From assembly GCA_031266215.1 (NCBI GenBank), contig JAISBL010000085.1:1-35033 (forward strand): 35,033 bases of DNA. Direction: 5' to 3'. The translations under genes and the position numbers were made by a program. Below, in pieces: positions 16,917-32,062 of this stretch. Positions within the stretch are counted from its first letter, which is position 1, and each line of letters begins with the position of its first letter. Under the pieces are notes generated by a model, which did no database searches, was not told the origin of the DNA, and worked only from the letters and a program-made list of their open reading frames with translations. The stretch comes from Tannerellaceae bacterium. GTDB taxonomy: Bacteria > Bacteroidota > Bacteroidia > Bacteroidales > Tannerellaceae.

Positions 16917-17000
16917 ATTCTTAATATTTGGTTGATATTTACTGCGAATTGTTTTGTTGTCGCCGGGGAAGCCGGTCTTCCCTGAGCGTTCAACCCGATA

Positions 17001-17092
17001 TTGACCGAGCTGTCAACCCTGCATTGACTGAGTTGTCAACATGGTATTGACTGAGGTGTCAACACCGGGTTGACAGCTCAGTCAACACGGTG
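17001..17092. repeat. Palindromic tandem array C (four units of 23 bp plus flanking half units)
   Basis: Four exact 23-bp units of the form TTGAC-N6-GTCAA-N7, starting at 17001, 17024, 17047 and 17070, with partial units on both sides (about 16988-17000 and 17093-17097). The 5-bp arms are invariant while the 6- and 7-bp spacers vary, the opposite of random decay. A further stem, GGGAAG-CCGGT-CTTCCC, abuts it at 16966-16982. The array ends 17 bp from the stop codon of the HU-like gene (17110) and lies upstream of the mini-BspA gene. Confidence 0.9.
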
Positions 17093-17109
17093 TTGAAAAT
17101 TCCCGTTCG

Positions 17110-17847
17110 TCATGCGAAGGTCAGTGTCTGATCAAAGGTGATGCTGCGAGGCTCGTTAAGGATATAGCCCACGGTGTACTGCGTGATTATTTCCAGCGTA
17201 CAGGTAGTGCTCATTGGCACCGACGGTATGACGACCATAAGTTCCGAGGGGTTGTTGATCACTATGTCCGTGGGATCGACCTTTACAGTAGCTCCGCTGT
17301 CGCCGTGGAAATAGACGCCTACCGAGTCGTGTTTGCCGTCGCCGGCGATCTTCAGCTTACTGCCGCTGATGCGAAGGTTGCGGTCGACGGTGAGAAGATT
17401 GTTGATGGAGCCGGTCTTGACGTCGAGCACCTGGGCGATGTATCCGTCGGTACTGGGAGCCCCCTGTATCTCTACCGTGATGCCGGGGATTTCCTTACGC
17501 ATAAGGGCGCCCTGATGAAGCTCAAAGATGATGGTGTGCTTCTCAGGGTCGTACTGCCCGAGGGGATTGTCGACCACCCCTTTGATGTGTACCGAGGCTG
17601 TGAACCATCCGGTGTTGATAGAATAACCGTCGCAGAGCTGGTAGCCCATCTCCTTAAGCCACAGTTTTACGGCGTGCTCCATAGCTGCGGCCGTTACGTC
17701 CGCCCCTCCGCGTGCGACGGCGATCTCACATACTTCGCTGATATTTAGCGAACGGTCCGCAATTACACGGATGGAATAGTCATCAGGGTCTTCGGTGAGA
17801 TAGTTCCTGTACAGGTTTGCCCTGATCTTGTGAAAAATATTTGCCAT
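17110..17847 (-). CDS. HU-like DNA-binding domain/DUF4469 protein (copy 1)
   Basis: A 245-residue protein of the Bacteroidales family that joins an N-terminal HU-like (IHF/HU-fold) domain to a C-terminal DUF4469 domain. Residues 1-120 include SLNISEVCEIAVARGGADVT and AMEHAVKLWLKEMGYQL, typical of the HU-like part. Residues about 130-245 form the beta-rich DUF4469 part, with LRISGSKLKIAGD and a GVYF core. There is no signal peptide, so it should be cytoplasmic and may bind DNA; its role is unknown. A palindromic array follows 17 bp after the stop. A long leader (to about 18139) carries a short ORF, a purine-pyrimidine tract and a hairpin. A paralogue lies at 31027-31818 with the same surroundings. 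Confidence 0.88.
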   Translation of the reverse strand: MANIFHKIRANLYRNYLTEDPDDYSIRVIADRSLNISEVCEIAVARGGADVTAAAMEHAVKLWLKEMGYQLCDGYSINTGWFTASVHIKGVVDNPLGQYDPEKHTIIFELHQGALMRKEIPGITVEIQGAPSTDGYIAQVLDVKTGSINNLLTVDRNLRISGSKLKIAGDGKHDSVGVYFHGDSGATVKVDPTDIVINNPSELMVVIPSVPMSTTCTLEIITQYTVGYILNEPRSITFDQTLTFA

Positions 17848-17892
17848 AACTGAAAAGAATTAAAGAATTAATAAATAGTAGAGTAAAGAAGA

Positions 17893-17933
17893 AACCCACC
17901 CGCAGAAGATGGGTATCTTCCAGCGGACGGGTT
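17893..17933 (-). promoter_or_regulatory. Attenuator-like hairpin in the leader of HU-like copy 1
   Basis: A long stem: GAAGAT/ATCTTC around a GGGT loop, extended by CCGC/GCGG and AACCC/GGGTT with small internal loops. On the minus strand it is followed by TTTCTTCTTT and lies 46 bp before the ATG at 17847. The shape is that of a terminator inside a leader, which suggests attenuation. The function is inferred. Confidence 0.5.
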
Positions 17934-18011
17934 ATACGTTTTGCAGCAAAAGAGGAGAGCGAAAGAAAAGAAAACAGGCCTCGTCTTTCTTGCTTGTTAA
18001 TTTGATTTTTG

Positions 18012-18113
18012 TTATAACGCCGTGCGTACGCGCACGTGTGTGTGTGTGTGTGTGTTAGGAGCCGTGTAGTTGTTGACTAACCATAAAGAACCGGTAAAAT
18101 AGGTAGTTATCAT
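18012..18113 (-). CDS. Possible upstream small ORF (33 codons) in the leader of HU-like copy 1
   Basis: An ATG at 18113 opens a 33-residue frame (MITTYFTGSLWLVNNYTAP, then a Thr-His run from a CA repeat, ending VRVRTAL). The ATG is 33 bp from the -7 element at 18146-18153, the same spacing as the small ORF before the other HU-like gene. The peptide has no recognised family, and the repeat makes coding uncertain. Changes in the dinucleotide tract would shift its frame. Confidence 0.25.
   Translation of the reverse strand: MITTYFTGSLWLVNNYTAPNTHTHTHVRVRTAL
18021..18055. repeat. 35-bp alternating pyrimidine-purine tract with (GT)10
   Basis: Every base from 18021 to 18055 alternates pyrimidine and purine, starting with CGTGCGTACGCGCACG and ending in a run of ten GT units. 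Such tracts favour left-handed Z-DNA under negative supercoiling and are prone to slippage. It lies between the divergent HU-like and lysS promoters, inside the transcribed leader of the HU-like gene. Confidence 0.9.
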
Positions 18114-18145
18114 TGTGATTTAAGCGGGGTTAAAATTAACGGAGA

Positions 18146-18153
18146 CAAACATA
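18146..18153 (-). promoter_or_regulatory. Candidate -7 element for HU-like copy 1
   Basis: The minus strand reads TATGTTTG, matching TAnnTTTG. Transcription from here would give a leader of about 290 nt before the HU-like start codon. No clear -33 element is seen. Confidence 0.45.
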
Positions 18154-18267
18154 ATTATTTTTTTGTAAAAGCTATATGTGCGGGATGTAAAAAATAACAT
18201 CATCGGTTTTGACAGTATAGATAAAGCCCGGCAGGAGACGGCGTCATAACTTTCTGAAAAAGTTTTT

Positions 18268-18275
18268 TACTTTTG
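18268..18275 (+). promoter_or_regulatory. -7 element of the lysS operon
   Basis: TACTTTTG matches TAnnTTTG and lies 27 bp before the ATG at 18303. A longer in-frame ATG at 18273 would fall inside this element, which argues that translation starts at 18303. Confidence 0.6.
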
Positions 18276-18302
18276 TGCGATGTTATAAAAACTATAATCA
18301 TA

Positions 18303-19838
18303 ATGAGTCAGACAGAATTGAGCGAACAGGAGATATTCAGGCGTAACAGCCTGGAACAACTGCGAGGATTGGGGATAGAACCCTATCCGGCCGCAGAATA
18401 CATAACCAATGCCTGGTCAAAAGATATAAAAGAATCATTTAAAGACGAAGATACCGTAAAACGCAATGTAAGCATTGCAGGACGTATCATGAGCCGCCGC
18501 ATAATGGGTAAGGCTTCGTTTATGGAACTGCAGGACTCAAGGGGAAGGATACAGGTGTACGTCTCGCGCGACGACCTCTGCCCGGGAGAAGATAAGGAGA
18601 CGTATAATACGGTGTTTAAGAAACTGCTTGACATAGGCGACTATATCGGTATCGAAGGCTACGTGTTCCGTACGCAGATGGGAGAAATCTCCGTTCACGC
18701 CTCTAAACTTACGGTATTGTCAAAATCATTGCGCCCGCTCCCGATAGTGAAGATGAAAGACGGCGTGGTGTACGACGGCTTTAACGACCCCGAACAGCGT
18801 TATCGCCAACGATACGTAGACCTTGTAGTAAACGAAGGCGTTAAAGACATATTTGTCAAACGTACCGGGATATTTAATTCCATGCGCGATTTCTTCAACA
18901 CCCGCGGCTATATAGAAGTAGACACGCCGGTGCTGCAAAGTATTCCCGGAGGAGCGGCCGCCCGCCCGTTTGTGACCCACCATAACGCCCTTGACATAGA
19001 CCTCTACCTGCGCATCGCCAACGAACTGTACCTGAAACGACTTATCGTAGGAGGCTTCGAAGGCGTATATGAGTTTAGCCGCAACTTCCGCAACGAAGGA
19101 ATGGACCGCACGCATAACCCTGAGTTTACATGTATGGAGATATATGTAGCCTATAAGGATTACAACTGGATGATGTCGCTGACCGAGCAGATGCTTGAAA
19201 AGATATGCCTCGAAGTCAACGGTAGCACACGTGTGACGTACGCCGGGTGCGAGATAGACTTCAAAGCCCCCTATAAGCGCATCACGATAACGGATGCCAT
19301 CCGCGAAAATACAGGAACAGACATTACCGGCATGGACGAAGAAGAACTGCGTGAAGTATGCCGGCAGACAGGCGTAGAGCAGGACAAAACGATGGGCAGG
19401 GGAAAGCTTATTGACGCCATCTTCGGCCATACATGCGAAGCGGGTTATATACAGCCGACCTTTATAACGGACTATCCCATAGAAATGTCGCCGCTGACGA
19501 AGAAACACCGTAACAATCCGCACCTGACCGAACGCTTTGAGCTGATGGTCTGCGGAAAGGAAATAGCCAATGCCTATTCGGAGCTTAACGACCCCGTCGA
19601 CCAGCGCGCCCGCTTTGAAGAACAACTGAAACTGAGCGAAAAGGGAGACGACGAAGCGATGTTTATCGATCAGGATTTCCTTCGCGCCCTGGAATACGGC
19701 ATGCCGCCAACCAGCGGTATGGGTGTCGGGATGGACCGTCTGGTGATGTTTCTTACCGGGCAGGAGAGCATACAGGAGGTATTACTCTTCCCCCAGATGC
19801 GTCCCGAATGGAGCCTAACGCCCGAAAATAAGGACTAA
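18303..19838 (+). CDS. lysS: Lysyl-tRNA synthetase, class II
   Basis: A 511-residue enzyme that charges tRNA-Lys with lysine using ATP, close to the usual bacterial length of about 505. An OB-fold anticodon-binding domain occupies about 45-165 ([20 protein letters not shown]). The class II catalytic core follows, with motif 2 in [19 protein letters not shown] and motif 3 in [15 protein letters not shown]. The start is taken as [10 protein letters not shown] at 18303 because an upstream ATG overlaps the promoter. It heads a compact operon with gpsA (4 bp later), pgi and a HAD phosphatase. Confidence 0.98.
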
Positions 19839-19842
19839 AAAC

Positions 19843-20838
19843 ATGGAACTGCCCGGGAAAATCGCTGTCATGGGAGGTGGTAGCTGGGCTACGGCCCTGG
19901 CGAAAATAGTGCTGTCTACCCAGGAGCATATCAACTGGTATATGCGCCGCCCCGATCAGATTGAAGAATTCAGGCAGCTGGGGCATAATCCGAGCTATAT
20001 AACAAGCGTCAAATTTGATATAAGCCGGATTACGTTTTATTCAAATATCAACCAGGTGATCAAAGAGTCCGACACACTGATATTCGCCACGCCCTCACCT
20101 TTCCTCAAGCAGCATCTGAAAAAAATAAAAAGACCGATGAGTGATAAGTTCATCGTCTCGGCCATCAAAGGACTTGTCCCCGACGAGAACATGCTGATAA
20201 CCGATTACTTCTCCGAATACTACAGGGTGCCGGCAGACAATATCGCCGTGATAGGAGGACCATGCCACGCCGAAGAAATAGCCCTTGAACGCCTTTCTTA
20301 CATAACGCTGGGGTGTACCGATACCGAAAAGATCGCACCTCTGGCCGGGGTTTTCAGTAACCAGTACCTCAAAAACACCATCAGCCGCGACGTCGCCGGC
20401 ATCGAATACGCCTCTGTGCTGAAAAATGTTTATTCCATAGCAGCAGGCGTATGCCACGGGATGAAATACGGCGACAATTTTCAGGCCGTATTCCTCTCAA
20501 ACGCAATACAGGAGATGCGCCGCTTTGTTGACGCCACAGGTGATAAGGGGCAGGACATAACCGACTCGGTTTATCTGGGAGACCTCCTCGTGACGGCCTA
20601 TTCGCGCTTCAGCCGCAACCGTATATTCGGGACAATGATAGGAAAAGGATACTCCGTGAAAATAGCCCAGCTCGAAATGGAGATGATAGCCGAAGGCTAC
20701 TACGGAACGAAATGTATCCATGAGATAAACGAGAAATACAAGGTAAACATGCCCATACTGGATGCCCTTTACGGCATACTGTACGAGAAGAAATCTCCCA
20801 CTACGGTTATTCAAAGATTGACAGAAACATTCAAATAG
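19843..20838 (+). CDS. gpsA: Glycerol-3-phosphate dehydrogenase (NAD(P)+)
   Basis: A 331-residue cytoplasmic enzyme that reduces dihydroxyacetone phosphate to sn-glycerol 3-phosphate for phospholipid synthesis. The Rossmann dinucleotide-binding motif is GGGSWATA near the N-terminus. The segments SAIKGL and GGPCHAEEI, and the helical catalytic part with SVLKNVYSIAAGVCHGMKYGDN including the catalytic lysine, are typical of GpsA. The start lies 4 bp after lysS, and pgi follows 6 bp after the stop, so all are co-transcribed. The end, PTTVIQRLTETFK, matches the family's usual length. Confidence 0.97.
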   Translation: MELPGKIAVMGGGSWATALAKIVLSTQEHINWYMRRPDQIEEFRQLGHNPSYITSVKFDISRITFYSNINQVIKESDTLIFATPSPFLKQHLKKIKRPMSDKFIVSAIKGLVPDENMLITDYFSEYYRVPADNIAVIGGPCHAEEIALERLSYITLGCTDTEKIAPLAGVFSNQYLKNTISRDVAGIEYASVLKNVYSIAAGVCHGMKYGDNFQAVFLSNAIQEMRRFVDATGDKGQDITDSVYLGDLLVTAYSRFSRNRIFGTMIGKGYSVKIAQLEMEMIAEGYYGTKCIHEINEKYKVNMPILDALYGILYEKKSPTTVIQRLTETFK

Positions 20839-20844
20839 GTTATT

Positions 20845-22191
20845 ATGAAAGGTATTATTCTTAACATTGACAAGGCGCTGGGTTTCGTATCACGGGAACA
20901 GGTATACGCCTGTGAAGACAGGGTGAAAGCGGCGACGGAAGCTCTGCACAGAGGCAGTGGCGCAGGCAGTGATTTCCTGGGATGGCTCAACCTGCCGTCT
21001 TCAATAACGGAGGCGGAGCTTGCCGACATAGAACATACGGCCCGCCTGCTGAGCATAGGATGCGAGGTTGTGGTGGTTATCGGTATCGGCGGCAGTTACC
21101 TGGGGACCAGAGCGACGCTGGAAGCGCTGAAAGGCAGCTTCGACTTACTGCTGAAAGAACGCGGAAACCCCGCCATCCTGTATGCCGGGCATAACATCAG
21201 CGAAGATTATCTGTACGAGTTGAGCGAAGCGCTGAGAGGCAGATCGTTCGGACTTATCAATATCTCCAAATCAGGCACGACAACCGAACCGGCCCTGGCC
21301 TTCCGTATACTGAAAAAGCAGTTGGAAGACGCCGTAGGCAAAGAAAAAGCCCGGGATCGCATCGTGGCCGTTACCGACGCACGCAAGGGCGCCCTGCGGA
21401 CACTGGCCGGCAGGGAAGGGTATAAGACATTCGTTATCCCCGACAACGTAGGCGGACGGTTCTCCGTATTTACACCCGTGGGCCTGCTCCCGATAGCTGT
21501 TGCCGGCGTATCCGTCCGCGACCTGCTGAGGGGAGCCGCAGATATGGAAAGGGCGACAGGCGCAGGTGTACCTTTTGCAGAAAACATCTCAGCTATCTAT
21601 GCCGCCACACGTAATGAGCTATACAAAGGCGGAAAGAAGATAGAGATACTTGCCAACTTCCATCCTAAACTGCATTATGTAGCCGAATGGTGGAAACAAC
21701 TGTATGGCGAAAGCGAAGGAAAAGACCATAAAGGCATATTCCCGGCCTCAGTTGACCTGACAACCGACCTCCATTCGATGGGACAATGGATACAGGATGG
21801 CGAACGTTCCATATTTGAAACAGTCATCTCAGTGGAAACACCCGGCAGGACCGTCTTTATACCGGCAGACGAAGCCGACTCTGACGGGCTGAACTTCCTC
21901 GCCGGCAAACGTATTGACGAGGTAAACAAGATGGCGGAACTGGGAACGAGCCTGGCGCATGTAGACGGCGGAGTTCCCAATATTCGTATATCCATCCCCG
22001 AGCTTACGCCATATTACATCGGGCAATTGCTCTATTTCTTTGAAAAAGCATGCGGCATCAGCGGCTATCTCCTTGAAGTCAACCCATTCGACCAGCCGGG
22101 CGTGGAAGCATACAAGAAAAATATGTTTGCACTGCTTAACAAGCCCGGATTTGAAAAGGAATCAGAAGCCATCAAAGCCCGTATGCAATGA
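20845..22191 (+). CDS. pgi: Glucose-6-phosphate isomerase
   Basis: A 448-residue enzyme that interconverts glucose 6-phosphate and fructose 6-phosphate in glycolysis and gluconeogenesis. Its length matches the short bacterial form rather than the roughly 550-residue form of E. coli. Sugar-phosphate isomerase motifs are visible: [40 protein letters not shown], and the active-site region [15 protein letters not shown]. It starts 6 bp after gpsA and overlaps the HAD phosphatase by 4 bp (ATGA), implying translational coupling. Confidence 0.97.
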
Positions 22192-22895
22192 TAAAAGCCG
22201 TATTATTCGACATGGACGGCGTCCTGTATGACTCTATGCCGTTCCATGTCCGCGCCTGGTCGGAAGTATCAGATAAGTACGGCCTGCGCTATGCGCCGGA
22301 AGATTTCTACCTCTACGAAGGACGCACGGGAGACAGCACGCTGGATATTCTATTCGGCCAGACCTTCGGGCGCGACGCTACGGAAGAAGAGAAGCGCGAT
22401 ATTTATCAGGAGAAAGTCGTCATATTCAATGAGATCAACAGCGGCGAGATGATGGCCGGCGCTGCGGAGGTACTGCAACAGGTCGGGAACTATGGCCTTG
22501 AGACGCTGGTAGTGACCGGTTCGGGGCAACATACCCTGATAGATAAGCTCAACAACGACTTCCCCGGATACTTCCAGCGCGAAAAGATGGTAACAGCATT
22601 CGACGTGCAATACGGCAAACCACATCCCGAACCATACCTTATGGGGCTCGAAAAAGCAGGAGTGCAGGCCGATGAAGCCGTAGTGATAGAAAACGCCCCG
22701 TTGGGCGTCAGGTCAGCCGTTGCCGCCGGCATCTTTACTATTGCCGTAAACACAGGTCCGCTACCTGATAAGATATTACTGGATGAAGGAGCCAGCCTGC
22801 TTTTTCATGATATGCATACCCTGGCCGAGAACTTCGCACGTGCCATACGCAGGGCTACAGGCCACAGGCCGGCGCAGGATTCAGAACTGCTCTAA
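22188..22895 (+). CDS. HAD-superfamily hydrolase, beta-phosphoglucomutase-like
   Basis: A 235-residue HAD phosphatase of subfamily IA. Motif I is DMDGVLYDS with nucleophile Asp8 and acid Asp10. A helical cap (about 18-90) follows, then motif II VTGSG, motif III with Lys in YGKPHPEP, and motif IV in VIENAPLGV. Such enzymes dephosphorylate sugar phosphates or act as beta-phosphoglucomutases. Overlap with pgi by 4 bp supports a sugar-phosphate substrate, but it is unknown. Motif IV has ENAP rather than the more usual EDS. Its 3' end overlaps the converging htpX-like gene by 15 bp. Confidence 0.9.
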
Positions 22896-23867
22896 TATTT
22901 CAATACGTTTCCCGATAGGCGGGTGGGTGGAGAAAAAACCGCCAAGTCCGCTGAGCATGCTGCGCGCCTGGCGTCCGGGATGTTCTATAAACAATTGGGC
23001 GACATCTTCGCGTCTGACGGCTTCAATGTCAGGGTCGGCAGATATTTTCCGCAGGGCGCTTGCCAGTGCATAAGGCTTTTTCGTCATCGCAGCCGCTCCG
23101 GCGTCAGCCATGTACTCCCGTTTGCGCGATATTGCAAAGCGCATCAGTGTGGAAAAGAAATATCCGATGACGGCGACAACGAGGGCCAGCAGCAAAATGA
23201 TAAGAACAGAAGCCCCGCTATTGCCTTTTTCCTGTTTACGCGAAGAGCGTGGGGCATGCAGGATCATACGGAAGCATATCTGCGAAAGCATGGCGAATAT
23301 CCCCACAAAGACAATAGACACAATCAGCAGTCTGACATCGCGGTTGCGGATATGGGAAAGCTCGTGGGCAACGACGCCTTCCAGCTCCTCGTCGTCAAGC
23401 TTTCTTATGATACCGGACGAAAAGGTGACAGTATAACTCTTTTCGTTTATGCCGCTGGCGAAGGCATTGAGCGAGTCGTCGTCAATTATATTTATCTGCG
23501 GCGTCTTCATGCCCTGAGACATGCAAAGGTTCTCTACTATATTATATACCCGCTTGTTTTCCTTCCGTTCCAGCGGACGTGCGCCGGCAGCATTGCGTAT
23601 GATTTGAGCATTTGCGAAATAAGCGATGACAAACCACAGCAAAACACCTCCCGCGACGTAAGGGGCCAACTGTACGAAAAGGCTGTTTGTTGAATACAAC
23701 AGGCCGGCGGACACCCGGCTCGCTTCCGTTCCGAATATATCAAACCGGAAAGCAAGGAAGCAAAACAGATAAACCAGCCCTGCCACTAGGCACGGAAAAA
23801 GCAACAGCAGGAGCAGAGAACGGAAGTTGTTTCTGCGCTGCTGTGTTTGTATCCCTACGTACTTCAT
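22881..23867 (-). CDS. htpX: M48-family membrane metalloprotease, HtpX-like
   Basis: A 328-residue zinc protease of the inner membrane. The catalytic motif is HELSH (168-172), and the third zinc ligand is probably Glu251 in SRKREYMADAGA. There are two N-terminal transmembrane segments (about 17-40 and 63-86) and two after the active-site helix (about 180-200 and 220-240), the HtpX topology. HtpX degrades misfolded membrane proteins. It begins 3 bp after the lemA stop; lemA-htpX pairs are common in bacteria, so the two products probably act together. The C-terminus overlaps the convergent HAD gene. Confidence 0.93.
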   Translation of the reverse strand: MKYVGIQTQQRRNNFRSLLLLLLFPCLVAGLVYLFCFLAFRFDIFGTEASRVSAGLLYSTNSLFVQLAPYVAGGVLLWFVIAYFANAQIIRNAAGARPLERKENKRVYNIVENLCMSQGMKTPQINIIDDDSLNAFASGINEKSYTVTFSSGIIRKLDDEELEGVVAHELSHIRNRDVRLLIVSIVFVGIFAMLSQICFRMILHAPRSSRKQEKGNSGASVLIILLLALVVAVIGYFFSTLMRFAISRKREYMADAGAAAMTKKPYALASALRKISADPDIEAVRREDVAQLFIEHPGRQARSMLSGLGGFFSTHPPIGKRIEILEQF

Positions 23868-23870
23868 ACC

Positions 23871-24431
23871 TCAGAACTGTATTTTAGGCGCTTCTTCGTA
23901 GGTGCTACGCTGTTCGCCCAGGTCGAACATCATCTCTTTATGGAAGCCGAACATGCCGGCTATGAGATTAGACGGGAAGGTCTGAACGGCGTTATTAAGC
24001 TCTTTGGTGGCGGAATTGAAGTAACGTCTGACGGCCGACAGTTTGTTTTCCAGATCGGCGATCTCTTCCTGCAGGTGCATGAAGTTCTGGTTGGCTTTCA
24101 GGTCAGGATATGCTTCCAGGGTTATCCGCATACCGGCCAGGGCGGAACTCAGCGCATTTTCGGCAACGATCTTATCGTTTATCGTTTTTGCGCTTACGGC
24201 TCCGTTGCGGGCGCTTATCACCCGGTCTAAAGTTTCCTTTTCGTGGGCGGCATATCCCTTAACCGTTTCTACAAGCTGGGGCACGAGGTCATGCCGTTGT
24301 TTTAGTTGCACGTCTATGTCGGCAAAAGCATTCTCCCTGTTGTTTCTCAGCCTTACCAGCGAGTTGTACATAGAACCTGCAATAATGGCAAGAAGCACGA
24401 TAATTCCAATGATAATAAGTAATGTCGTCAT
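23871..24431 (-). CDS. lemA: LemA family protein
   Basis: A 186-residue protein with one N-terminal transmembrane helix (about 4-22), then an extended helical domain. Family signatures are YNSLVRLRNNRENAFADIDVQLKQRHDLVPQLVETVKGYA and YFNSATKELNNAVQTFPSNLIAGMFGF. LemA proteins are membrane-anchored helical bundles of uncertain function, often paired with HtpX-like proteases as here (3-bp gap). The C-terminus ends APKIQF, as is usual for the family. Confidence 0.95.
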   Translation of the reverse strand: MTTLLIIIGIIVLLAIIAGSMYNSLVRLRNNRENAFADIDVQLKQRHDLVPQLVETVKGYAAHEKETLDRVISARNGAVSAKTINDKIVAENALSSALAGMRITLEAYPDLKANQNFMHLQEEIADLENKLSAVRRYFNSATKELNNAVQTFPSNLIAGMFGFHKEMMFDLGEQRSTYEEAPKIQF

Positions 24432-24595: not shown

Positions 24596-24985
24596 TTATT
24601 TAACACGGGTCATCTCCATGGGCGGCATTTCGCCGAAATCAGAGATCATATTAAGCATGAATTTGCTTTCATTAAAATAGAAAGCAACTTTCATCTCGAA
24701 ATCAGGGATCTCCAGTATTGCAACATATTTGCCGTTTTCCGGTTTAAGCGCTGTTGTTGTCACCTCACCCATCGGATTGGCGAGGGTCGCTTTGGTTTCA
24801 CCGCTTACGGTGGCAATTTTGCACGTTCCCGCTATCGGGTCGCCTCCGCCCATCATGTCGGGCATCGAAAATGTCCATTCGCCTTCCATCTTTTTCAGTT
24901 CATTATCCTGGGCAAGTGTGGTAGTACTCAACGCTGCGATCATAGCTATACACAGCATAAAAATCTTTGATACTTTTGTTTTCAT
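24596..24985 (-). CDS. Small secreted protein of unknown function
   Basis: A 129-residue protein with a signal peptide (MKTKVSKIFMLCIAMIAALS, cut near LAQ). The mature domain of about 105 residues is beta-rich and begins KKMEGEWTFSMPDMMGGGDP, then alternates strands (ATVSGETKATLANPMGEV, KYVAILEIPDFEMKVAFYF). The GEW start and strand pattern resemble lipocalin-like small barrels, but this is only a resemblance. It has its own terminator, and no partner gene is evident. Confidence 0.78.
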   Translation of the reverse strand: MKTKVSKIFMLCIAMIAALSTTTLAQDNELKKMEGEWTFSMPDMMGGGDPIAGTCKIATVSGETKATLANPMGEVTTTALKPENGKYVAILEIPDFEMKVAFYFNESKFMLNMISDFGEMPPMEMTRVK

Positions 24986-25264
24986 ACGAATAAAGTGTTT
25001 AATTCAATGTAGGTATGGAACTCGCAGTACGTTTTATTTATCGCCTTTGGCGTAACATAGTTTTTACATGCTCGTTTCATAATGATTTGTTTTATTTTTT
25101 GGGTTATGGATCAGAAACCGGGATGTTGGTTCCTGTCCAGATTTACCGGGACGAAAATACATATTAATTATCACACGCAAAAACAAAACAGACAAACCGG
25201 TGTTTACCGGCAAAAGCCTTTTTATAATCATCGGATGTAAACTCACAGGAGAAGTAGTATGGGG

Positions 25265-25363
25265 GGGGTATAAAAAAATTAGAGGGTGTCTCACGACATC
25301 CCCTAACCAACTTTGTTAACCTTAAATCTAATACTATTATGAAAAAACCACAGTGCAAATATA
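25265..25363 (-). ncRNA. Possible small leftward RNA
   Basis: On the minus strand a hairpin (GGATGTC-GTGA-GACACCC, 25284-25301) is followed by ATTTTTTTA, a good intrinsic terminator. No leftward gene lies upstream of it for over 700 bp. A -7-like element TATATTTG sits at 25356-25363, predicting a transcript of about 80 nt. The -33 spacing is poor (25 bp). The same hairpin on the plus strand could instead belong to a leader. Confidence 0.3.
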
Positions 25364-25404
25364 TAGGGCTTTTTGTGATCGGCAATAGCAAAAATGCTAA
25401 ATAA
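25339..25404 (+). other. Short 21-codon frame after a leader-like sequence, possible gene remnant
   Basis: An ATG at 25339 follows an A/T-rich leader (TTAACCTTAAATCTAATAC at about 25316-25334) of the kind seen before Bacteroidales genes. It opens a frame reading MKKPQCKYIGLFVIGNSKN before a stop. This could be the broken start of a lost gene or a leader peptide. The region 24986-26026 otherwise holds no gene I can support: only this frame, the hairpin at 25283-25304, and the promoter elements near 25802-25841. Confidence 0.25.
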
Positions 25405-25801
25405 TGTTTTGCAGCACATAAAAAAGGCTAAATCGCGACATTTCTTTTCTTATTTGACCTGCTTTTGCCCCTTCACCCTCCCTTACCATATCAATTGGCC
25501 GCTATCAATGATCAAATGACGAATAAATCTAAGCTTTACTGCCGGATGATTTTACATGCCGTTTCCTGAGCGATCATGGCTACGCGGTAAGGCACCGCAA
25601 ACATATAATAATACTGCCGGCAAAAGGAACGCTGAAAACTCGCAGATGCTGATTGTAAAAAGAAAAGGGTCGTTTTTTTTATACATAAACAACATAATGT
25701 TTTACATGGCGACTGCCGGTATGCATCACGATCCGTTATACGGGTTACATCCGCGTATAGAGCAATATTACAGAGCAGTGAGGCAATGCAAAAAAATATG
25801 T

Positions 25802-25819
25802 ATCTTTCTTTAGAAAGAT
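25802..25819. promoter_or_regulatory. Perfect palindrome at the -33 position of the susC promoter
   Basis: ATCTTTC-TTTA-GAAAGAT: 7-bp perfect arms with a 4-bp centre, ending 14 bp before the -7 element at 25834. The placement fits an operator for a regulator of the susC-susD pair; no such regulator is encoded in the window. Confidence 0.45.
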
Positions 25820-25833
25820 CAAAAATTTATTCC

Positions 25834-25841
25834 TATGTTTG
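25834..25841 (+). promoter_or_regulatory. Candidate -7 element for susC
   Basis: TATGTTTG matches TAnnTTTG. It would give a leader of about 180 nt before the susC start at 26027. Confidence 0.45.
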
Positions 25842-26026
25842 CGAAGAATTAAAACGACGGTTTACTTTATGCTGTCTGAATCTGGATTTTATGGGAATCA
25901 TGACACATTGCGCGAAAAGCGCAGGTATAACAAAAGATCAAATATTTAAACTCTATATCGCCGCAATTATAATGAGAAACGCTTTTTTATCAAATTATAA
26001 ATAATCAATTTATTAATCTAACTTTT

Positions 26027-29000
26027 ATGCAGATGAGCTATTTAAAGAAAGCATGTGAAGGCTTTTTCACATGTTTGTTAGGGATTATGCTTTTAAGTCC
26101 CGGAGCAGTCATTGCCCAGTCTCAGACGATACGGGTAAGTGGCACGGTAGTGGATCAAACCACCAGAGAACCAATTATTGGGGCTAATGTGGTGGAAAAA
26201 GGAACGACAAATGGGAACATAACTGACCTTGACGGAACATTTACGCTGAATGTTAACCGTGGCGCTACGCTGACAATTTCTTACGTTGGCTATGTAAACC
26301 AGGAAATTCAGGCATCATCGTCAGCTATGAACATACTTCTGAAAGAAGATTCGCAGGCGCTGGGCGAAGTAATAGTAGTAGGATACGGCACACAACGCAG
26401 GGAAAGCCTCACCGGCTCTTTGCAGACGCTTAAAAACGAAAAGATTGTGACTGCCACTACTCCGTCGGTGGAAAACCTGCTTTCGGGCAAGGCGCCGGGC
26501 GTTTATGTCGCTCCCGGTAGCGGACAACCCGGTTCGAGAGGCAATATCATCATCCGCGGACGGTCGTCTATCAACGGCAGCACCGACCCGCTATGGGTAA
26601 TCGACGGCGTAATCGTGGGCACCGCGTCCAACTTCACCCTCAACCCCAGTGACATCGAAACGATGACCATCCTCAAGGACGCCGCCTCTACCGCTATCTA
26701 CGGTTCGCAGGGCGCCAACGGCGTTATCGTGGTGACTACCAACCGGGCGATGGGTGACAAGGTGACCGTAAACGTATCGGCCAAGTTCGGTGTCAGCAAC
26801 CTCGACAACGGTAAGCTGGAAGTTATGAACGGCGCCGAGCTGTACGACTACTACAAGTCTTTCTCCAACCAGGAAATGGTAACCTTCCCGCGCTGGAACG
26901 AGCAACTGAGGAACTCCAACTACAACTGGTGGGACCTGGCTACCCAGACCGGCATGGCGCAGGACTATAACGTCTCCATATCCGGAGGAAGTGAAACCAT
27001 GAAGTCTTACTTCTCACTTGGGTACTACGACGAAGAAGGTGCGGTAAAAGGATACGAATTCAGCCGCTACAGCATGCGCTTCCGTACTGAGTACAAGCCG
27101 CTGCAATGGCTTACCGTCAAACCGTCAGTCTCAGGATCGCGCCGCGACGTAGACGACAGGCAGTACTCAACCACCGCCATGTACTCCAACCTCCCCTGGG
27201 ACAGCCCTTATCTGGAAGACGGAGTTACACCTACGCCCCACCGCTCATCCACATGGGTAAAGAGCACGGGGACAAACTACCTCTACGACCTGCAATGGAA
27301 CAAGTCGGGAAGCGCACGCTATTCGTTTATGGGGAACATCGATTTTGACATCCGTTTCACCGACTGGCTCACTTTCTCATCCGTCAACAACTTCAGTTGG
27401 GATAACATAACCGAAAACACCTACACCGACCCGCGCTCCAACGGCGGTTCCGGCGTAAAAGGACGTATCAAGGAGCTGACCGATAAGACCGAGCGGAGGT
27501 ATACCAACCAGATACTGCGCTTCAACAAAGTCTTCGGCAAACACTCCATCAACGCCCTGGCTGCATACGAGTTCAGCGACTACCGCTTCCAAAGGACGGA
27601 AACGGCGGCTACCAACTTCGTACAGGGCTTTGAAGTGCTCAATGTGGGCACCACACCCGAAGAAGCCAAAGGATACATCAATACTTCGGCTATCCAGTCG
27701 CTGCTCTTCAACGCCAACTATGCGTATGACAACAAATACATGGCACAGGTATCGGCCCGCCGTGACGGAGCCTCCAACTTCGGCGAAAACGCCAAGTACG
27801 GTAACTTCTTCTCCATCAGCGCCGGCTGGCTTATCAATAAGGAAGACTTCTTCACCGCCCGGTGGGTAGACCTGCTCAAGCTGCGTGTGGCTTATGGAAC
27901 GGTGGGTAACCGCCCGCGTGACCTTTATCCGCAGTACGACCTGTATAGCGTATCCGGCAGCTACGACGACGTCTTCTCTGCCGTTATCAACCAGATAGGA
28001 AACAAAGACCTTACCTGGGAAAAGACAAAAACCATTGGCGTAGGGATAGACTTCAGCTTCCTCGACCGCTTCCGCATCAACCTGGACTATTACAACAAGA
28101 ACACCGACAACGTTCTCTTCAAAGTCCCCATACCGGCGCTCACCGGCGTCACGTCAAACTGGCAGAACGTAGGCGAACTGAGCAATATCGGTTTTGAAGC
28201 CGTCGTAGGCGCTGACATTATAAAAAGTAAAGACTGGAACTGGAGCGTGGACTTCAACATCGGTACCAACCATAATGAAGTGAAGAAGCTCTACAACACC
28301 AAAGACGCAAACCCGCAGATAGTAAACGGAGCCACTAACATAGCCGGAGGTATCGAGCGCCTGCTCAAACCCGGATATAGCAGCGATACGTGGTACACAT
28401 ACGAATGGGCCGGGGTAAATCCCGAAACAGGCGCCCCGCAGTGGTACACTACGGATGAAAACGGCGCGCGCGTTATCACCGAAGACTATTCCAAGGCCGA
28501 CAAGGTGATGTGCGGATCGTATACGCCGGACTTCTTCGGAGGCTTCTCCACATCGCTGAGCTGGAAACAGTTCGACCTCAGCGCCGTCTTCGCCTATTCC
28601 GTAGGCGGAACGATATACAACTATGCACGCATGGAGTACGACTCCGACGGGACATATACCGACCGCAACCAGATGAAGCTCATCGATGGATGGAAGCGCT
28701 GGACGCAGCCCGGGCAAACCGACGCTACGCACCCTGTAGCCAGCTACAATAACTCGTCGAAAGCCAACAGCACCTCCTCGCGTTATCTTGAAAAAGGCGA
28801 CTACCTCAAGCTGCGTAGCCTTACCATCGGATATAACCTCCCGCTGAAGCAATGGAAGATACAGAACCTCCGCTTCACGCTGTCGGCTGAAAACCTGCTC
28901 ACCTTCACGGGATACTCCGGCGTAGACCCTGAAATACCCGTCAATATCGACCCGGCCTACGGAATAACCGGCGTAACCAACGCCAGCAATTATCCCATCA

Positions 29001-29038
29001 CACGCAAGTACATGCTTGGTATCAACCTAACATTCTAA
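26027..29038 (+). CDS. SusC/RagA-type TonB-linked outer membrane transporter
   Basis: A 1003-residue outer-membrane importer. A signal peptide (about 1-30, ending AVIAQ) is followed by a carboxypeptidase-regulatory-like domain (about 34-110: VSGTVVDQTTREPIIGANVVEKGT). The plug domain has the family signature GEVIVVGYGTQRRESLTGS and later ANGVIVVTT. A large 22-strand barrel ends in RKYMLGINLTF, with the terminal Phe needed for assembly. With the SusD partner 12 bp downstream it forms a lidded importer for glycans or peptides, energised by TonB. The start could be ATG 26027 or 26033. There is no N-terminal signalling domain, so anti-sigma control is unlikely. No degradative enzymes follow, so the substrate is unknown. 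Confidence 0.96.
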   Translation: MQMSYLKKACEGFFTCLLGIMLLSPGAVIAQSQTIRVSGTVVDQTTREPIIGANVVEKGTTNGNITDLDGTFTLNVNRGATLTISYVGYVNQEIQASSSAMNILLKEDSQALGEVIVVGYGTQRRESLTGSLQTLKNEKIVTATTPSVENLLSGKAPGVYVAPGSGQPGSRGNIIIRGRSSINGSTDPLWVIDGVIVGTASNFTLNPSDIETMTILKDAASTAIYGSQGANGVIVVTTNRAMGDKVTVNVSAKFGVSNLDNGKLEVMNGAELYDYYKSFSNQEMVTFPRWNEQLRNSNYNWWDLATQTGMAQDYNVSISGGSETMKSYFSLGYYDEEGAVKGYEFSRYSMRFRTEYKPLQWLTVKPSVSGSRRDVDDRQYSTTAMYSNLPWDSPYLEDGVTPTPHRSSTWVKSTGTNYLYDLQWNKSGSARYSFMGNIDFDIRFTDWLTFSSVNNFSWDNITENTYTDPRSNGGSGVKGRIKELTDKTERRYTNQILRFNKVFGKHSINALAAYEFSDYRFQRTETAATNFVQGFEVLNVGTTPEEAKGYINTSAIQSLLFNANYAYDNKYMAQVSARRDGASNFGENAKYGNFFSISAGWLINKEDFFTARWVDLLKLRVAYGTVGNRPRDLYPQYDLYSVSGSYDDVFSAVINQIGNKDLTWEKTKTIGVGIDFSFLDRFRINLDYYNKNTDNVLFKVPIPALTGVTSNWQNVGELSNIGFEAVVGADIIKSKDWNWSVDFNIGTNHNEVKKLYNTKDANPQIVNGATNIAGGIERLLKPGYSSDTWYTYEWAGVNPETGAPQWYTTDENGARVITEDYSKADKVMCGSYTPDFFGGFSTSLSWKQFDLSAVFAYSVGGTIYNYARMEYDSDGTYTDRNQMKLIDGWKRWTQPGQTDATHPVASYNNSSKANSTSSRYLEKGDYLKLRSLTIGYNLPLKQWKIQNLRFTLSAENLLTFTGYSGVDPEIPVNIDPAYGITGVTNASNYPITRKYMLGINLTF

Positions 29039-29050
29039 AAACAACAGACG

Positions 29051-30772
29051 ATGAAAAATATATATATCTTCCTCATGGCCGTATGCTTACTCACGGCCTG
29101 CGACATCGACCGCTTCCCCTCTACCTCTATGGCGGCGGAACAGATAAAGGCAAACCCTGCCGGTATGATCGACGAGCTGCTTAACGGGGCCTACTCACAG
29201 ACGAAAACCTGGTCGGACGTCATGCACCGTTGCGGCGAATACGCCGGAGACAACATGATGATACGCGGTTCTTCCACAGACGCATTCTACCAGTTCATCT
29301 CATACTCGCGTACACCCAGCAACTCGCGCCTGAACAGCTTCTGGAGCAATAGCTATATGGCCATAGCCCAGACATCCAACATCATCACCATGATAGGCGA
29401 CAACAATGACCCCGCGATTACCAGCAAGATAGGAGAGTGCTACTTCCTAAGGGGCATGCTCTACTTCTACCTCTGCCGCGCCTACGGACGGCCTTACTAC
29501 CAGAGCCCGGAAACCAACCTGGGCCTCCCCATTGTCAACGGCACGCCTGAAAACATCCTCAACCTGGAACTGCCCGACCGCTCTACCGTGAAGGCAACGT
29601 ACGAACAGGCCATCGCCGACCTGGAAAAAGCCGCTTCCCTCATCACAGCCGACCGCGGACCGGCCTACGCCTCTCGCGAAGCCGCATGGGCGCTGCTCAG
29701 CCGCATATACCTCTATATGAGCGGCACATGGGATAGCCCGAACACCGCTAACGCCGCAAAGAGTATCGAATACGCCGACATGGTGATCAACAGCGGAAAG
29801 TACAGCATGCTCAGCCGCGGAGACTTCATGAAGTATAACACCTTCAAGCCTGAAAGCAACAAAGAATCCATCTTCGTGGTTAAACGCATGGCTTCCGAGT
29901 TCTCCGGCTCCGACCACTACTACGGTATCGGCGGTATGTATGCCAATATCGGCGGTATGGGCTGGGGCGAAATGTACGCCAGCGCAAAGTATATCGGACT
30001 GCTTGACGAAACGGGACGTAACGACTGGCGCAAAGGCAATATCGTAGACGCCCGCGCCGCCTTTATCGAACCGCAGTACGAGGAGGCTGAGCATCCCGTC
30101 TTCCGCTTCATCAAAAAGGTGTACAACGCAAACGGCGACCATACTAACTTCAATTACGTACAGGCCGACGTAACCGTCAACGGCAATACCGCCACCTGTA
30201 AGGAAGTGATCGCAGATGTTGAAAAAACTTTCCAGCTCACTCCGGTAAACGTGGAACAGGGCGTATGGTCGGTCAAATATGACGACGGCGAGACTTACAC
30301 CGGATACATGGACCAGTTCATCCGCCTCAACCGCGTATACCCGATGTTCTACATCGTCAAGTGCTCGCGCGAGGGCGAAAACTCACACCTCCACTCGCCC
30401 GTCATCACCCGTCTGGCCGAGATGTACCTCAATAAGGCTGAAGCCGCCGCCAAGACAGGCGACTACGGCTCTGCCCTTACGGCCCTCAACATCGTACGCG
30501 AACGCTCCCTCCCGGGTAAAGGCTACACCGCGCTGACAGCCGCCGACGCCGCCGACCGTATCGAGAAGGAACGTACCCTTGAACTGGCCTATCAGGCCGA
30601 ACGCAGCTACGACGTATATCGTAACGGCCGTTCGCTGACGCGCCTGTATCCGGGCCCGCACAATGCTGTTGAAGAGATATTCCCCAACGACTACCGCGTC
30701 GTTTACTATATCCCGCAGACAGCCATCGATTCTTACGCAGGCACGTTGACGCAGAATCCTACCTCCAACTGA
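29051..30772 (+). CDS. SusD/RagB-type surface lipoprotein
   Basis: A 573-residue lipoprotein that acts as the substrate-binding lid of the SusC transporter encoded 12 bp upstream. The signal peptide ends at LLTAC (Cys17), followed by DIDRFPSTSM. SusD landmarks are NGAYSQTKTW, GECYFLRGMLYFYLCRAYG, the TPR-like helical regions, and near the C-terminus RLAEMYLNKAEAAAKTGDYGSALTALNIVRER and ERTLELAYQAERSYDVYRNGR. A strong terminator follows at 30795-30834. Its codons are more GC-rich than the leader region upstream of susC. Confidence 0.95.
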   Translation: MKNIYIFLMAVCLLTACDIDRFPSTSMAAEQIKANPAGMIDELLNGAYSQTKTWSDVMHRCGEYAGDNMMIRGSSTDAFYQFISYSRTPSNSRLNSFWSNSYMAIAQTSNIITMIGDNNDPAITSKIGECYFLRGMLYFYLCRAYGRPYYQSPETNLGLPIVNGTPENILNLELPDRSTVKATYEQAIADLEKAASLITADRGPAYASREAAWALLSRIYLYMSGTWDSPNTANAAKSIEYADMVINSGKYSMLSRGDFMKYNTFKPESNKESIFVVKRMASEFSGSDHYYGIGGMYANIGGMGWGEMYASAKYIGLLDETGRNDWRKGNIVDARAAFIEPQYEEAEHPVFRFIKKVYNANGDHTNFNYVQADVTVNGNTATCKEVIADVEKTFQLTPVNVEQGVWSVKYDDGETYTGYMDQFIRLNRVYPMFYIVKCSREGENSHLHSPVITRLAEMYLNKAEAAAKTGDYGSALTALNIVRERSLPGKGYTALTAADAADRIEKERTLELAYQAERSYDVYRNGRSLTRLYPGPHNAVEEIFPNDYRVVYYIPQTAIDSYAGTLTQNPTSN

Positions 30773-30794
30773 GGCTGACAGGCATATAAATAAA

Positions 30795-30834
30795 AAAGGG
30801 GGCAGGCCATACAGGTCTGCCCCCTTTAATTTTC
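30795..30834 (+). terminator. Strong intrinsic terminator after susD
   Basis: A perfect stem of about 10 bp, AAAGGGGGCAG and CTGCCCCCTTT, then TAATTTT. It lies 23 bp after the susD stop and so ends the susC-susD transcript. Confidence 0.9.
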
Positions 30835-30867
30835 CCCCGCGTCCGGCAGGGTGTATATCCCATTTTT

Positions 30868-31019
30868 GGCAAGGCGCTTACCAAGGGCTGGTAAGGTGTT
30901 TACCTAACGCTTGGTAAGGTGTTTACCAAGGGCTGGTAAGGTGCTTACCAAGGCTTGGTAAGATGCTTGCCAAAGACTTGGTGTGAGGCTTGCCAAAAGC
31001 CCCTGGTAAACACCTTGCC
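30868..31019. repeat. Palindromic tandem array D (about seven units of 22-25 bp)
   Basis: Units of the form GGTAAG-GTG-CTTACC-AAGGGCT start at 30868, 30890, 30913, 30935, 30957, 30980 and 31005; the last two are degenerate. Stem changes are mostly compatible with pairing (GGCAAG with CTTACC, GGTAAG with CTTGCC, TTTACC), using G-T pairs. The stem is the same as that of units 10-12 of array A, although the spacers differ. The array ends 7 bp from the stop codon of the second HU-like gene and lies just after the susD terminator. Confidence 0.88.
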
Positions 31020-31026
31020 GTGGAAC

Positions 31027-31818
31027 TCATTGCTGCGGCGAATCCTCTCCGCCGGGTACAGTAGGTTGCGGGGCATTGCCGGAGGCTTTCAGCGTAAGTA
31101 TCAGGTCATACTCTATTACGCGGGGCGTCTTGAGCAGGTTGGAGCCGCCGTAGCGAGTGACAATGCGCAGCTTCATCTCGCGGGTGCCCATAAAGTAGGG
31201 CGTGCGGGCTACCACGCGCGAGGGTTGATTTTCACTGATACGGTCAGCCTCCTGCGTGCTGCCGTCTTCTACGAAAAAGACGCCCATGCCAGGCTCCATA
31301 GAACCGTCGGGTTGTGGCAGGCCGGCAACCTTGATCTTGTCCCCGGCGATTACAATGTCGTCACCCATCGTTACCGTGCCGTCGGTCTTTCCCGTGGCCA
31401 CGTCGGTCACCAGCATTATCCGTGCACCGGAGTCGGCCACGCCCAGAACCTCTACACCTACGTGATGCAACTCCTCGTGCATGGTTTTAGACAGGAAGGC
31501 ATCCACCGTCAGCCGGTGCTTACCCTTGGTGAAAGTCTCCTTGCCCGTCCACGTGCCGGTGATGCGGGGTGTGAGGTGTACCAGTTCGTCAAACACGCTG
31601 TACCCGTCCAGAATAAACTGCTGTTTTACAACGTTGGCCCTGTCGAGGATAGCCTTGATAGTCTCGGCTTTCACCTCGCTGCCTTCTTCCATTATACGGT
31701 TGATAATGTCTTGCTGGCGGCGCGTGCTGCCTGCGGTGTCTACTTCTGCGATGAAGTCTGTAAGGTCGGGCGTCAGTTTGTTCGGCCTCAACCACGCCTT
31801 CCAAAGGAATCTTGCCAT
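31027..31818 (-). CDS. HU-like DNA-binding domain/DUF4469 protein (copy 2)
   Basis: A 263-residue paralogue of the protein at 17110-17847. The HU-like part (1-125) has RRQQDIINRIMEEGSEVKAETIKAILDR and QQFILDGYSVF. The DUF4469 part (about 130-245) has VIAGDKIKVAGL, GVFFVE and KLRIVTRYGG. The tail is Pro/Gly-rich (QPTVPGGEDSPQQ). There is no signal peptide. Identity between the copies looks low outside the domain pattern, so this is not a recent duplication. A palindromic array follows 7 bp after the stop, and a small ORF precedes it by 45 bp, repeating the arrangement around copy 1. Function is unknown. Confidence 0.87.
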   Translation of the reverse strand: MARFLWKAWLRPNKLTPDLTDFIAEVDTAGSTRRQQDIINRIMEEGSEVKAETIKAILDRANVVKQQFILDGYSVFDELVHLTPRITGTWTGKETFTKGKHRLTVDAFLSKTMHEELHHVGVEVLGVADSGARIMLVTDVATGKTDGTVTMGDDIVIAGDKIKVAGLPQPDGSMEPGMGVFFVEDGSTQEADRISENQPSRVVARTPYFMGTREMKLRIVTRYGGSNLLKTPRVIEYDLILTLKASGNAPQPTVPGGEDSPQQ

Positions 31819-31863
31819 AATTGATAGATTTAATTGATTAATAATTAAGAGATAATATATGGG

Positions 31864-32022
31864 TTAAAAAGATGGATTGAAACGCTGCGCGAACCCGGCG
31901 GCAACGTTAAAGATGTAGGTAACAAGGCCATCACTGGTCTTGTCGTGTTCACAGCCTGCCTCATTGCAGGCTACGGTGGCGACGGATGCCGCCGGCCGGA
32001 TACATAAACCGGAATGTTTCAT
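31864..32022 (-). CDS. Possible 52-residue small protein upstream of HU-like copy 2
   Basis: An ATG at 32022 opens a 52-residue frame beginning MKHSGLCIRPAASVATVAC and ending AGFAQRFNPSF. It lies 33 bp after a -7 element (32055-32062) and 45 bp before the HU-like gene on the same strand, so it would be the first gene of the transcript. Four Cys or Cys-His positions (Cys7, Cys19, Cys24, His26) are notable. No family is recognised, and coding is not proven. Confidence 0.45.
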   Translation of the reverse strand: MKHSGLCIRPAASVATVACNEAGCEHDKTSDGLVTYIFNVAAGFAQRFNPSF

Positions 32023-32054
32023 AGGCGATTATTAAAGTGATTTTATTATAGCTG

Positions 32055-32062
32055 CAAAATTA
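32055..32062 (-). promoter_or_regulatory. -7 element for the small ORF/HU-like copy 2 transcript
   Basis: The minus strand reads TAATTTTG, the same octamer as at both promoters near 3.4-3.5 kb. The leader before the HU-like start would be about 230 nt. Confidence 0.55.

Follow-up and report, generated by a model that had tools for sequence, protein, structure and literature searches.

HU-fold DUF4469 genes of Bacteroidales are linked to tandem arrays of dyad repeats that may be their own binding sites

The DNA analysed here (the window) is a contig of 35,033 nucleotides from a Tannerellaceae bacterium, and carries two genes whose products join an HU/IHF-fold domain (residues 9-129 in the product of gene 1) to an Ig-like DUF4469 domain (residues 137-236); each gene is followed by an array of palindromic repeats (Table 1). 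PF14848 and PF14734 both score above the curated Pfam cut-off in both proteins, which a BLASTP alignment of 182 columns shows to be 29% identical, as diverged as an earlier, sequence-only reading had judged them to be. The DNA-binding fold that it had assigned to the N-terminal domains is borne out by PF14848 in both proteins and by an AlphaFold2 model of the gene 1 product (mean pLDDT 89.7), for which Foldseek gave 4fmr as the top match, followed by IHF-DNA, Hbb-DNA and HU structures at E about 1e-2. The PDB search also gave weak matches to BurrH.

Table 1. Genes, arrays and leader features in the window
Feature	Position	Strand	Basis
HU-DUF4469 gene 1, 245 aa	17110..17847	-	PF14848 E 1.6e-28, PF14734 E 1.7e-19
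HU-DUF4469 gene 2, 263 aa	31027..31818	-	PF14848 E 1.1e-23, PF14734 E 4.1e-16
Array A1, 23-bp units, without adjoining HU gene	523..803	.	TRF; sequence reading
Array A2, 21-bp dyad units, without adjoining HU gene	5356..5595	.	TRF
Array A3, about five 23-bp units, GTCAA/TTGAC-type half-sites	16966..17096	.	TRF 16982-17096; dyads
Array A4, 22-23 bp units, GGTAAG/CTTACC half-sites	30866..31019	.	TRF 30866-30997; dyads
-7-like element of gene 1, TATGTTTG	18146..18153	-	conserved in L011
-7-like element of gene 2, TAATTTTG	32055..32062	-	TAnnTTTG match
Leader hairpin before gene 1, then T-rich stretch	17893..17933	-	folding
33-codon ORF	18012..18113	-	not conserved in L011; no NCBIfam match
52-codon ORF	31864..32022	-	candidate; no NCBIfam match

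The sequence-only reading had placed the two arrays 17 and 7 bp past the stop codons, and their adjacency holds at both genes, with TRF distances of 14 bp for A3 (to its end at 17096) and 30 bp for A4; the shorter distance at A4 corresponds to a degenerate first unit that is visible by eye from about 7 bp past the stop. A4 also lies 94 bp past the stop of a convergent SusD-like gene (29051-30772), and its unit type recurs at five other places in our sample of the window's genome. The unit type of A3, whose last dyad (16966-16982) has a half-site unlike those of its other units, is also present at a 93%-identical paralogue (L011). Among the arrays that lack an adjoining HU gene, A1 closes (736-803) with units whose arms are GGTAAG/CTTACC and whose core is longer than that of A4, and the unit type of A2 is common to six other arrays of the same sample. 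Non-overlapping dyad arms of at least 5 bases cover 46 bases in A3 and 56 in A4, above both the means (8.1 and 7.8) and the maxima (32 and 36) of 200 shuffles each. A test for dyads at a fixed period was passed by A3 (p 0.033) and failed by A4 (p 0.934), because the period of A4 slips between 22 and 23 bp.

The linkage of gene and array is real and general, with many cases in Bacteroidales, an order whose members live mostly in the gut. An array of 21-24 bp period lies within 200 bp past the stop in 103 of 152 distinct HU-DUF4469 genes (those left after removing proteins with identical last 120 residues), and 96 of these arrays have a 23-bp period; the median stop-to-array distance is 23 bp. 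Another 14 of the 152 genes have an array upstream only, and at 35 TRF found none. Genes were called by ORF length without a gene finder, HU genes were recognized with a profile built from genus proteins, and some loci are shared between the genus, family and named-genome sets. Post-stop arrays accompany 10 of 13 HU genes and 16 of 410 other genes in the sample of the window's genome, 12/18 and 5/123 in a second genome (G061), 4/4 and 0/28 in a third (G020), 8/22 (plus seven HU genes with an upstream array only) and 9/120 in G048/G052, and 42/53 and 11/285 at the named-genome loci, a count that omits one HU reading frame running off its locus (L218). At the level of the order the linkage is weaker (8 of 16 loci). 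Since most loci were fetched for holding an HU gene, the cleanest control comes from stretches of G061 picked regardless of HU genes, where 17 of 291 genes have an array. The comparison of HU loci with other genes, on which the sequence-only reading had staked its claim of a module, thus comes out as enrichment at HU genes; literature searches found no description of HU-DUF4469 genes paired with arrays, in keeping with its suggestion of an undescribed system.

A related family of HU-fold genes, HU-HIG, has arrays on the other side. Upstream arrays of 22-bp period are found at 16 of 26 HU-HIG genes and at none of five canonical HU genes, against an upstream control that is not low (10/63); they often lie at the promoter, and in two of eight inspected cases ahead of the -7 element. 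Each of the two families has its characteristic array side and period.

Within the units, the dyad appears to be a property of the DNA, because arm mismatches in 34 downstream arrays show no G.U bias on the sense strand (47 G.T and 46 A.C); the dyad test leaves nine of the 34, A4 included, above p 0.05. Identity between units is 0.86 in the arms, 0.60 in the core and 0.56 in the spacer, and the arms are more conserved than the other parts in 25 of 26 arrays. Recent amplification is a possible alternative source of half-site identity within an array. From gene to gene the unit sequence mostly differs, while the period, the dyad and the side on which the array lies are kept. Up to 60% protein identity, the similarity of units from different loci stays level (mean 0.14); below that identity, array similarity was not seen to follow protein similarity (Spearman 0.05, 1852 pairs). 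That the repeat sequence differs by gene suggests that each protein has its own DNA docking sites beside its gene. L126 and L127 are 96%-identical proteins whose arrays differ at two positions, the same two in each of the eight half-sites. Of the ten differences between the proteins themselves, four are within residues 95-99, a segment that aligns to the HU arm loop (residues 90-104 of the window model); the interval from stop to array has diverged as well. In a further pair (L133/L134) most of the changes in the protein are outside the HU arm.

Arrays are also scattered elsewhere in the genomes. In the window's genome 12 of 26 scattered arrays of 22-23 bp match the genome's own HU arrays, a number reached by none of 1000 foreign draws, and 14 have no such match. 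In G061, where 20 scattered arrays in 400 kb outnumber the HU genes, 4 of 18 match when all 13 own HU arrays are used (0 of 200 draws), and 2 of 18 match at 0.45 when two HU arrays are dropped as duplicates to leave 11 (foreign draws 0-1); 14 of the 18 are without a match. The 21-bp arrays match no own HU array (0/21), and no partner gene recurs among their neighbours. Composite repeats in the window's genome carry two array types (those at L035 and L048 are 95% identical over about 350 bp), some scattered arrays have common flanks, and some copies contain the end of an HU gene, which suggests that they originated from an HU locus.

Given the computed linkage, nearly fixed period, DNA-level dyad, half-site constraint, private units and own-genome matches, we consider it fairly probable that an HU-DUF4469 gene and its adjacent array are a cis-linked pair of a protein and its binding site. 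Binding itself, the number of dimers per unit and every downstream function are inferred. A dimer of HU domains would bind each dyad unit of roughly 23 bp sequence-specifically, and several dimers, aligned at one per two helical turns, would form a compact nucleoprotein patch beside the gene. The upstream array of HU-HIG genes may be an operator for autoregulation, the post-stop array of the DUF4469 family a private anchor or bridging site, and scattered arrays of matching type its secondary sites along the chromosome. More tentatively, each HU-Ig paralogue might read a dyad code of its own, code and HU arm changing together after duplication, and mark its own scattered arrays, giving a single genome many non-interfering protein-address channels that organize or guard the chromosome.

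Several known systems resemble this arrangement. In plasmid iterons with Rep and in partition centromeres a protein gene likewise adjoins a tandem array of sites of about 20 bp; the HU system differs in that the many paralogues of a genome have separate arrays, and the neighbourhoods of 105 HU genes, whose neighbour clusters are annotated in part, show no recurring gene family for replication or partition. The HU-HIG and HU-DNA_bdg clades (PF18291, PF14848), expanded in Bacteroidetes, are the same protein families as those described here; Burroughs et al. 2017 reportedly proposed, from protein analysis, that they recognize mobile elements, and is not known to have linked them to arrays. In Treponema denticola, TDE_2259 combines PF14848 (1-122) with PF14734 (130-227) and has the locus number adjoining that of TDE_2258, a BspA surface antigen; the excerpted account treats it as HU-like with non-specific DNA binding and mentions no array (PMC12724145). 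REP/RAYT systems, as excerpted, also unite a DNA-binding protein gene with palindromic repeats that flank it and are scattered, as they are here, but RAYT is a Y1 transposase, and the HU arrays are head-to-tail units of fixed period (PMC3733652, PMC2817692, PMC3116915). Identity with REP/RAYT was rejected, as PF01797 was found neither in the window's genome (0/1; 87% complete) nor in G061, G048, G020, G010 and G013 (0/5).

The arrays could instead be miniature mobile elements or minisatellites that settled next to HU genes without serving the protein, which we regard as unlikely. Their model would be BrickBuilt of Porphyromonas gingivalis, in excerpts of its description (PMC4596501) a 23-nt imperfect tandem repeat within a MITE, with 19 scattered copies; BrickBuilt_14, with 84 nt of repeat, adjoins PGN_0872, annotated as a PF00216 DNA-binding protein. 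Like BrickBuilt, the HU arrays occur in Bacteroidales and are tandem, 23 nt in period, intergenic and scattered; BrickBuilt is described as mobile, its repeat accompanied by a leader, a tail and inverted repeats at the termini, and the excerpts, which allow a comparison by description only, mention neither a dyad nor a link to an HU-type gene (PMC4596501). The composite repeats and the frequency of scattered arrays would suit mobile elements, yet these should be similar in sequence, whereas HU-adjacent arrays mostly differ and keep period, dyad and side, and the scattered copies with HU gene ends point to the HU locus as the source. Somewhat less probable still is that the arrays are bound by a different protein, with the HU gene as no more than a frequent neighbour. 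The many scattered arrays and the 21-bp arrays without an adjoining HU gene would agree with this, but no conserved partner gene emerged (the largest neighbour cluster spans 9 loci of the 105 HU genes), and two HU-fold families each keep to one array side and period.

We give very little credence to the units being RNA hairpins at the mRNA 3' end, with a role in termination or stability or as RNA targets of the HU domain. Most downstream arrays do begin only tens of bases past the stop, but the balance of G.T and A.C mismatches led us to reject this reading; terminator-like hairpins, seen by eye, precede the array at two loci (L148 and L154), and HU-HIG arrays lie upstream, some before the -7 element. 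HU proteins are known for structure-specific binding, and the protein might respond to the shape of a palindrome, cruciform or bent, whatever its sequence, as the lack of relation between units and protein similarity below 60% identity would also allow. This too is most improbable, as shape demands symmetry within a unit and not sameness between units, yet the arms are the conserved part, and all L126/L127 half-sites changed alike. HU and IHF are textbook examples of architectural proteins, with little sequence preference. If the pairing of each protein with its own sites holds, this large family of HU-type proteins would supply a natural collection of protein-DNA specificity pairs, expanded families of unknown role (DUF4469, HU-HIG) would gain a testable function, and 23-bp repeats such as BrickBuilt might be explained; the near-identical L126 and L127, with their different arrays, open the specificity residues to direct test.

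The sequence-only reading had also counted a promoter and a small ORF as parts of the module, with the -7 element 33 bp before the ATG. The spacing between TAnnTTTG and the short-ORF ATG is indeed the same in both window leaders (32 bases between), but it exceeds chance by little (14 of 464 TAnnTTTG sites have an ATG so placed, and the mean for distances from 5 to 69 is 8.8), and a promoter-like pair lies upstream of only 13 of 94 HU genes. The small ORF finds no support as a part of the module: compared with L011 the 33-codon ORF has indels and many replacements and is probably not a gene, and a Smalltalk-type small protein was rejected, as neither short ORF has an NCBIfam match. At gathering score Rfam placed nothing over arrays or leaders, its two matches in the window being a tRNA and FopS. 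The leader hairpin of gene 1 has a folding energy of about -24 kcal/mol and its L011 counterpart one of about -20; the two show paired changes, and the hairpin is possibly an attenuator.

Each of the two HU-DUF4469 genes of the window (hereafter HU genes; see the table) is followed by a palindromic array, as the sequence-only reading had it: A3 and A4 hold 46 and 56 dyad-arm bases, where shuffling gave at most 32 and 36. That reading was also right that the two proteins are diverged (29% identity over 182 alignment columns) and that they begin with a DNA-binding fold. PF14848 is matched in both, and the AlphaFold2 model of the HU gene 1 product (mean pLDDT 89.7) has as its top Foldseek matches all four chains of 4fmr (B. 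vulgatus BVU_2165, 'putative bacterial DNA binding protein'), with IHF-DNA, Hbb-DNA and HU lower down at E ~1e-2, interspersed with Ig and copper-protein folds. Residues 30-77 of the same product give a weak phmmer match, perhaps by chance, to the repeat protein BurrH (4cja, E 1.3e-4).

Features of the window and of compared loci (L numbers)
Feature	Position (nt)	Strand	Description
HU gene 1	17110-17847	-	PF14848 HU/IHF-type DNA-binding domain, then Ig-like DUF4469 (PF14734)
HU gene 2	31027-31818	-	same architecture: PF14848, then PF14734
A3	16982-17096		array after HU gene 1 (TRF)
A4	30866-30997		array after HU gene 2; degenerate unit closer to stop (TRF)
A1	523-803		array without adjoining HU gene (TRF)
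A2	5356-5595		array without adjoining HU gene (TRF); period 21
Other period-21 arrays			L014, L017, L020, L035, L041, L042; L252, L267, L271
Leader hairpin	17893-17933	-	ahead of HU gene 1; T-rich stretch follows
FopS	25269-25351	-	sRNA (Bacteroidetes), Rfam match
Repeat segments	~300-520; 32300-32760		intergenic
BspA-type genes	12164-16916		leucine-rich repeat
Composite repeat	L035:1-447; L048:17835-18296		also L011, L022; MITE-like

The linkage extends well beyond the window. The window's genome (2.70 Mb in 134 contigs, 87% complete) has 13 matches for PF14848 and 14 for DUF4469, and in a sample of it (41 stretches, 615 kb, partly selected around HU genes) an array lies within 200 bp after the stop in 10 of the 13 HU genes whose stop falls inside a stretch, versus 16 of 410 other genes (Fisher 3e-11). 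By the same measure the relatives gave 12/18 versus 5/123 (G061) and 4/4 versus 0/28 (G020); in G048 and G052 together, 8 of 22 HU genes have an array after the stop and 7 more have one upstream only, versus 9 of 120 others. A HU-blind control, 400 kb of G061 selected without regard to HU genes, contained 20 arrays, and 17 of its 291 genes had one. Across 54 loci from named genomes the counts were 42/53 and 11/285. The proposed check, whether arrays are commoner after these stops than after other genes, came out in favour. At the level of the order, DUF4469 is present in 10 of 148 genomes, and at eight of 16 loci the stop is followed within 200 bp by an array, weak in one case. Pooling all loci yields 153 distinct HU genes: 103 with a downstream array (period 23 bp in 96, 22 bp in six, 24 bp in one), 14 with an upstream array only, 35 with none, and one too close to a contig end. 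At some genes without a TRF array irregular repeats are visible by eye, for example in P. gordonii (L170), and long inverted repeats follow the stop at two others (L168, L216; by eye). The family is expanded in some genomes, with 43, 29 and 19 DUF4469 matches in G048, G052 and G061. HU genes, most with arrays, also occur on contigs labelled as Treponema, Spirochaetaceae or Planctomycetaceae MAGs (L183-L185, L187-L192, L194-L197), which points to inter-phylum transfer or to mis-binning of the contigs.

The array unit is a dyad, with arms of ~5-9 bp flanking a short core. Were the hairpin selected in RNA, G.U-compatible arm mismatches should exceed A.C mismatches on the sense strand; among 1165 pairs from 34 downstream arrays there are 47 and 46, and the array thus looks like a DNA element. 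Terminator-like hairpins stand ahead of the array at L148 and L154 (by eye). Palindromy exceeds that of column shuffles at p 0.05 in 25 of the 34 arrays and does not in nine, A4 among them. Identity between units is 0.86 in arms, 0.60 in cores and 0.56 in spacers, the arms exceeding the other parts in 25 of 26 arrays (Wilcoxon 1.5e-5), where arms were defined by pairing rather than conservation, two properties that are not fully independent.

Unit sequences are largely private to each gene. Unit similarity is 0.14 for HU gene pairs up to 60% protein identity (1852 pairs in all), 0.24 for the 24 pairs at 60-80% and 0.36 for the four above 80%; the paralogue L011, 93% identical to HU gene 1, has the same unit sequence. 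In the G048 pair L126/L127 (96% identical, 10 differences of 247, with nearly identical flanks after the arrays), both variable positions are altered alike in all eight half-sites, from GGGGAG to GGGAAA in one orientation. Residues 95-99 hold four of the ten protein differences; this segment aligns with residues 93-97 of the HU gene 1 product, in the loop joining the two arm strands (82-89, 105-112) of the AlphaFold2 model. Against a simple account, however, the stop-to-array stretch of this pair has diverged as well, and L133/L134 (90% identical, arrays upstream) have wholly different arrays, and residues 1-70 contain 19 of their 24 protein differences.

Some of the arrays without a HU gene beside them (scattered arrays) resemble those of the HU genes. 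Of 26 scattered arrays with a 22-23 bp period in the window's genome, 12 are similar to a HU array of that genome (11 in all), whereas none of 1000 draws of 11 foreign HU arrays gave more than one match; in G061 the figure is 4 of 18, against 0 of 200 foreign draws. Three bear the C-terminal coding end of a HU gene (L045, L039, L020), and GGTAAG-type arrays at L011, L022, L035, L038 and L048 are flanked by sequence resembling the final codons, the stop and the following spacer of HU gene 2; such remnants suggest copies from which the 5' portion of the gene has been lost. Some of these copies sit in composite repeats that hold a further array type (L035 and L048, 95% identical over ~350 bp); the intergenic, MITE-like composite carries TGAAGG and GGTAAG arrays (22-23 bp) ~220 bp apart. 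Arrays of period 21, often dyadic, form a separate class. The 65 arrays of period 20-24 in the 615-kb sample comprise 22 of period 21, five of 22, 36 of 23 and two of 24, and 7 of 20 in G061 have period 21; none of 21 such arrays matches any HU array, and a search for a partner gene found none recurrent.

A second HU-fold family, HU-HIG (PF18291), has its arrays on the other side: 16 of 26 genes of the genus (L235, L236 and L250 being counted in the DUF4469 set too) carry an array of period 21-24 bp no more than 250 bp upstream, all 16 at a 22-bp period, as do none of five canonical HU genes and 10 of 63 other ORFs at the same loci (neighbours sharing one array included). In eight such regions, by eye, the array begins just after a TAnnTTTG element in five, sits immediately ahead of one in two and has no clear position in one. 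This placement is operator-like and, more than any other finding, hints at the proteins acting on their own arrays. Linkage, period, symmetry, constraint and scattered-array matching are shown by computation, and we infer that the protein binds the array and that this has a function. The most likely basis, which we consider reasonably probable, is that HU dimers recognise the dyads sequence-specifically, with one dimer for roughly every two helical turns. HU-HIG upstream arrays would then serve autoregulation, DUF4469 arrays would seed a nucleoprotein patch downstream of the gene, and scattered arrays would be secondary sites.

Genes that lie next to an array of sites for their own protein are long familiar, as with iterons and partition sites. 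REP/RAYT systems require a Y1 transposase, and none was found in the window's genome (87% complete) or in G061, G048, G020, G010 and G013. The accessible literature on DUF4469, on the Pfam accessions, on HU proteins and repeats in Bacteroides, and on HU and minisatellites in Bacteroidales yielded no description of the pairing, and none of the known kinds of system tested here fits. BrickBuilt of P. gingivalis, an imperfect 23-nt tandem repeat in 19 copies, of which BrickBuilt_14 (84 nt) adjoins a gene annotated PF00216 (PMC4596501), is alike in its period and in having one copy beside a DNA-binding-protein gene, and may be the same phenomenon viewed from the repeat side.

Several further observations concern the window. 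The leader hairpin of HU gene 1 is stable, shows paired base changes in L011 and is possibly an attenuator. The FopS match scores 61.6 bits (gathering score 56), and the two long intergenic repeat segments are related and rich in inverted sequence (by eye). Directly downstream of HU gene 1 lie the BspA-type genes; the T. denticola HU-DUF4469 gene TDE_2259, reduced in a trtA mutant and with no array mentioned in the accessible parts of the paper, is the next number to a BspA gene (PMC12724145).
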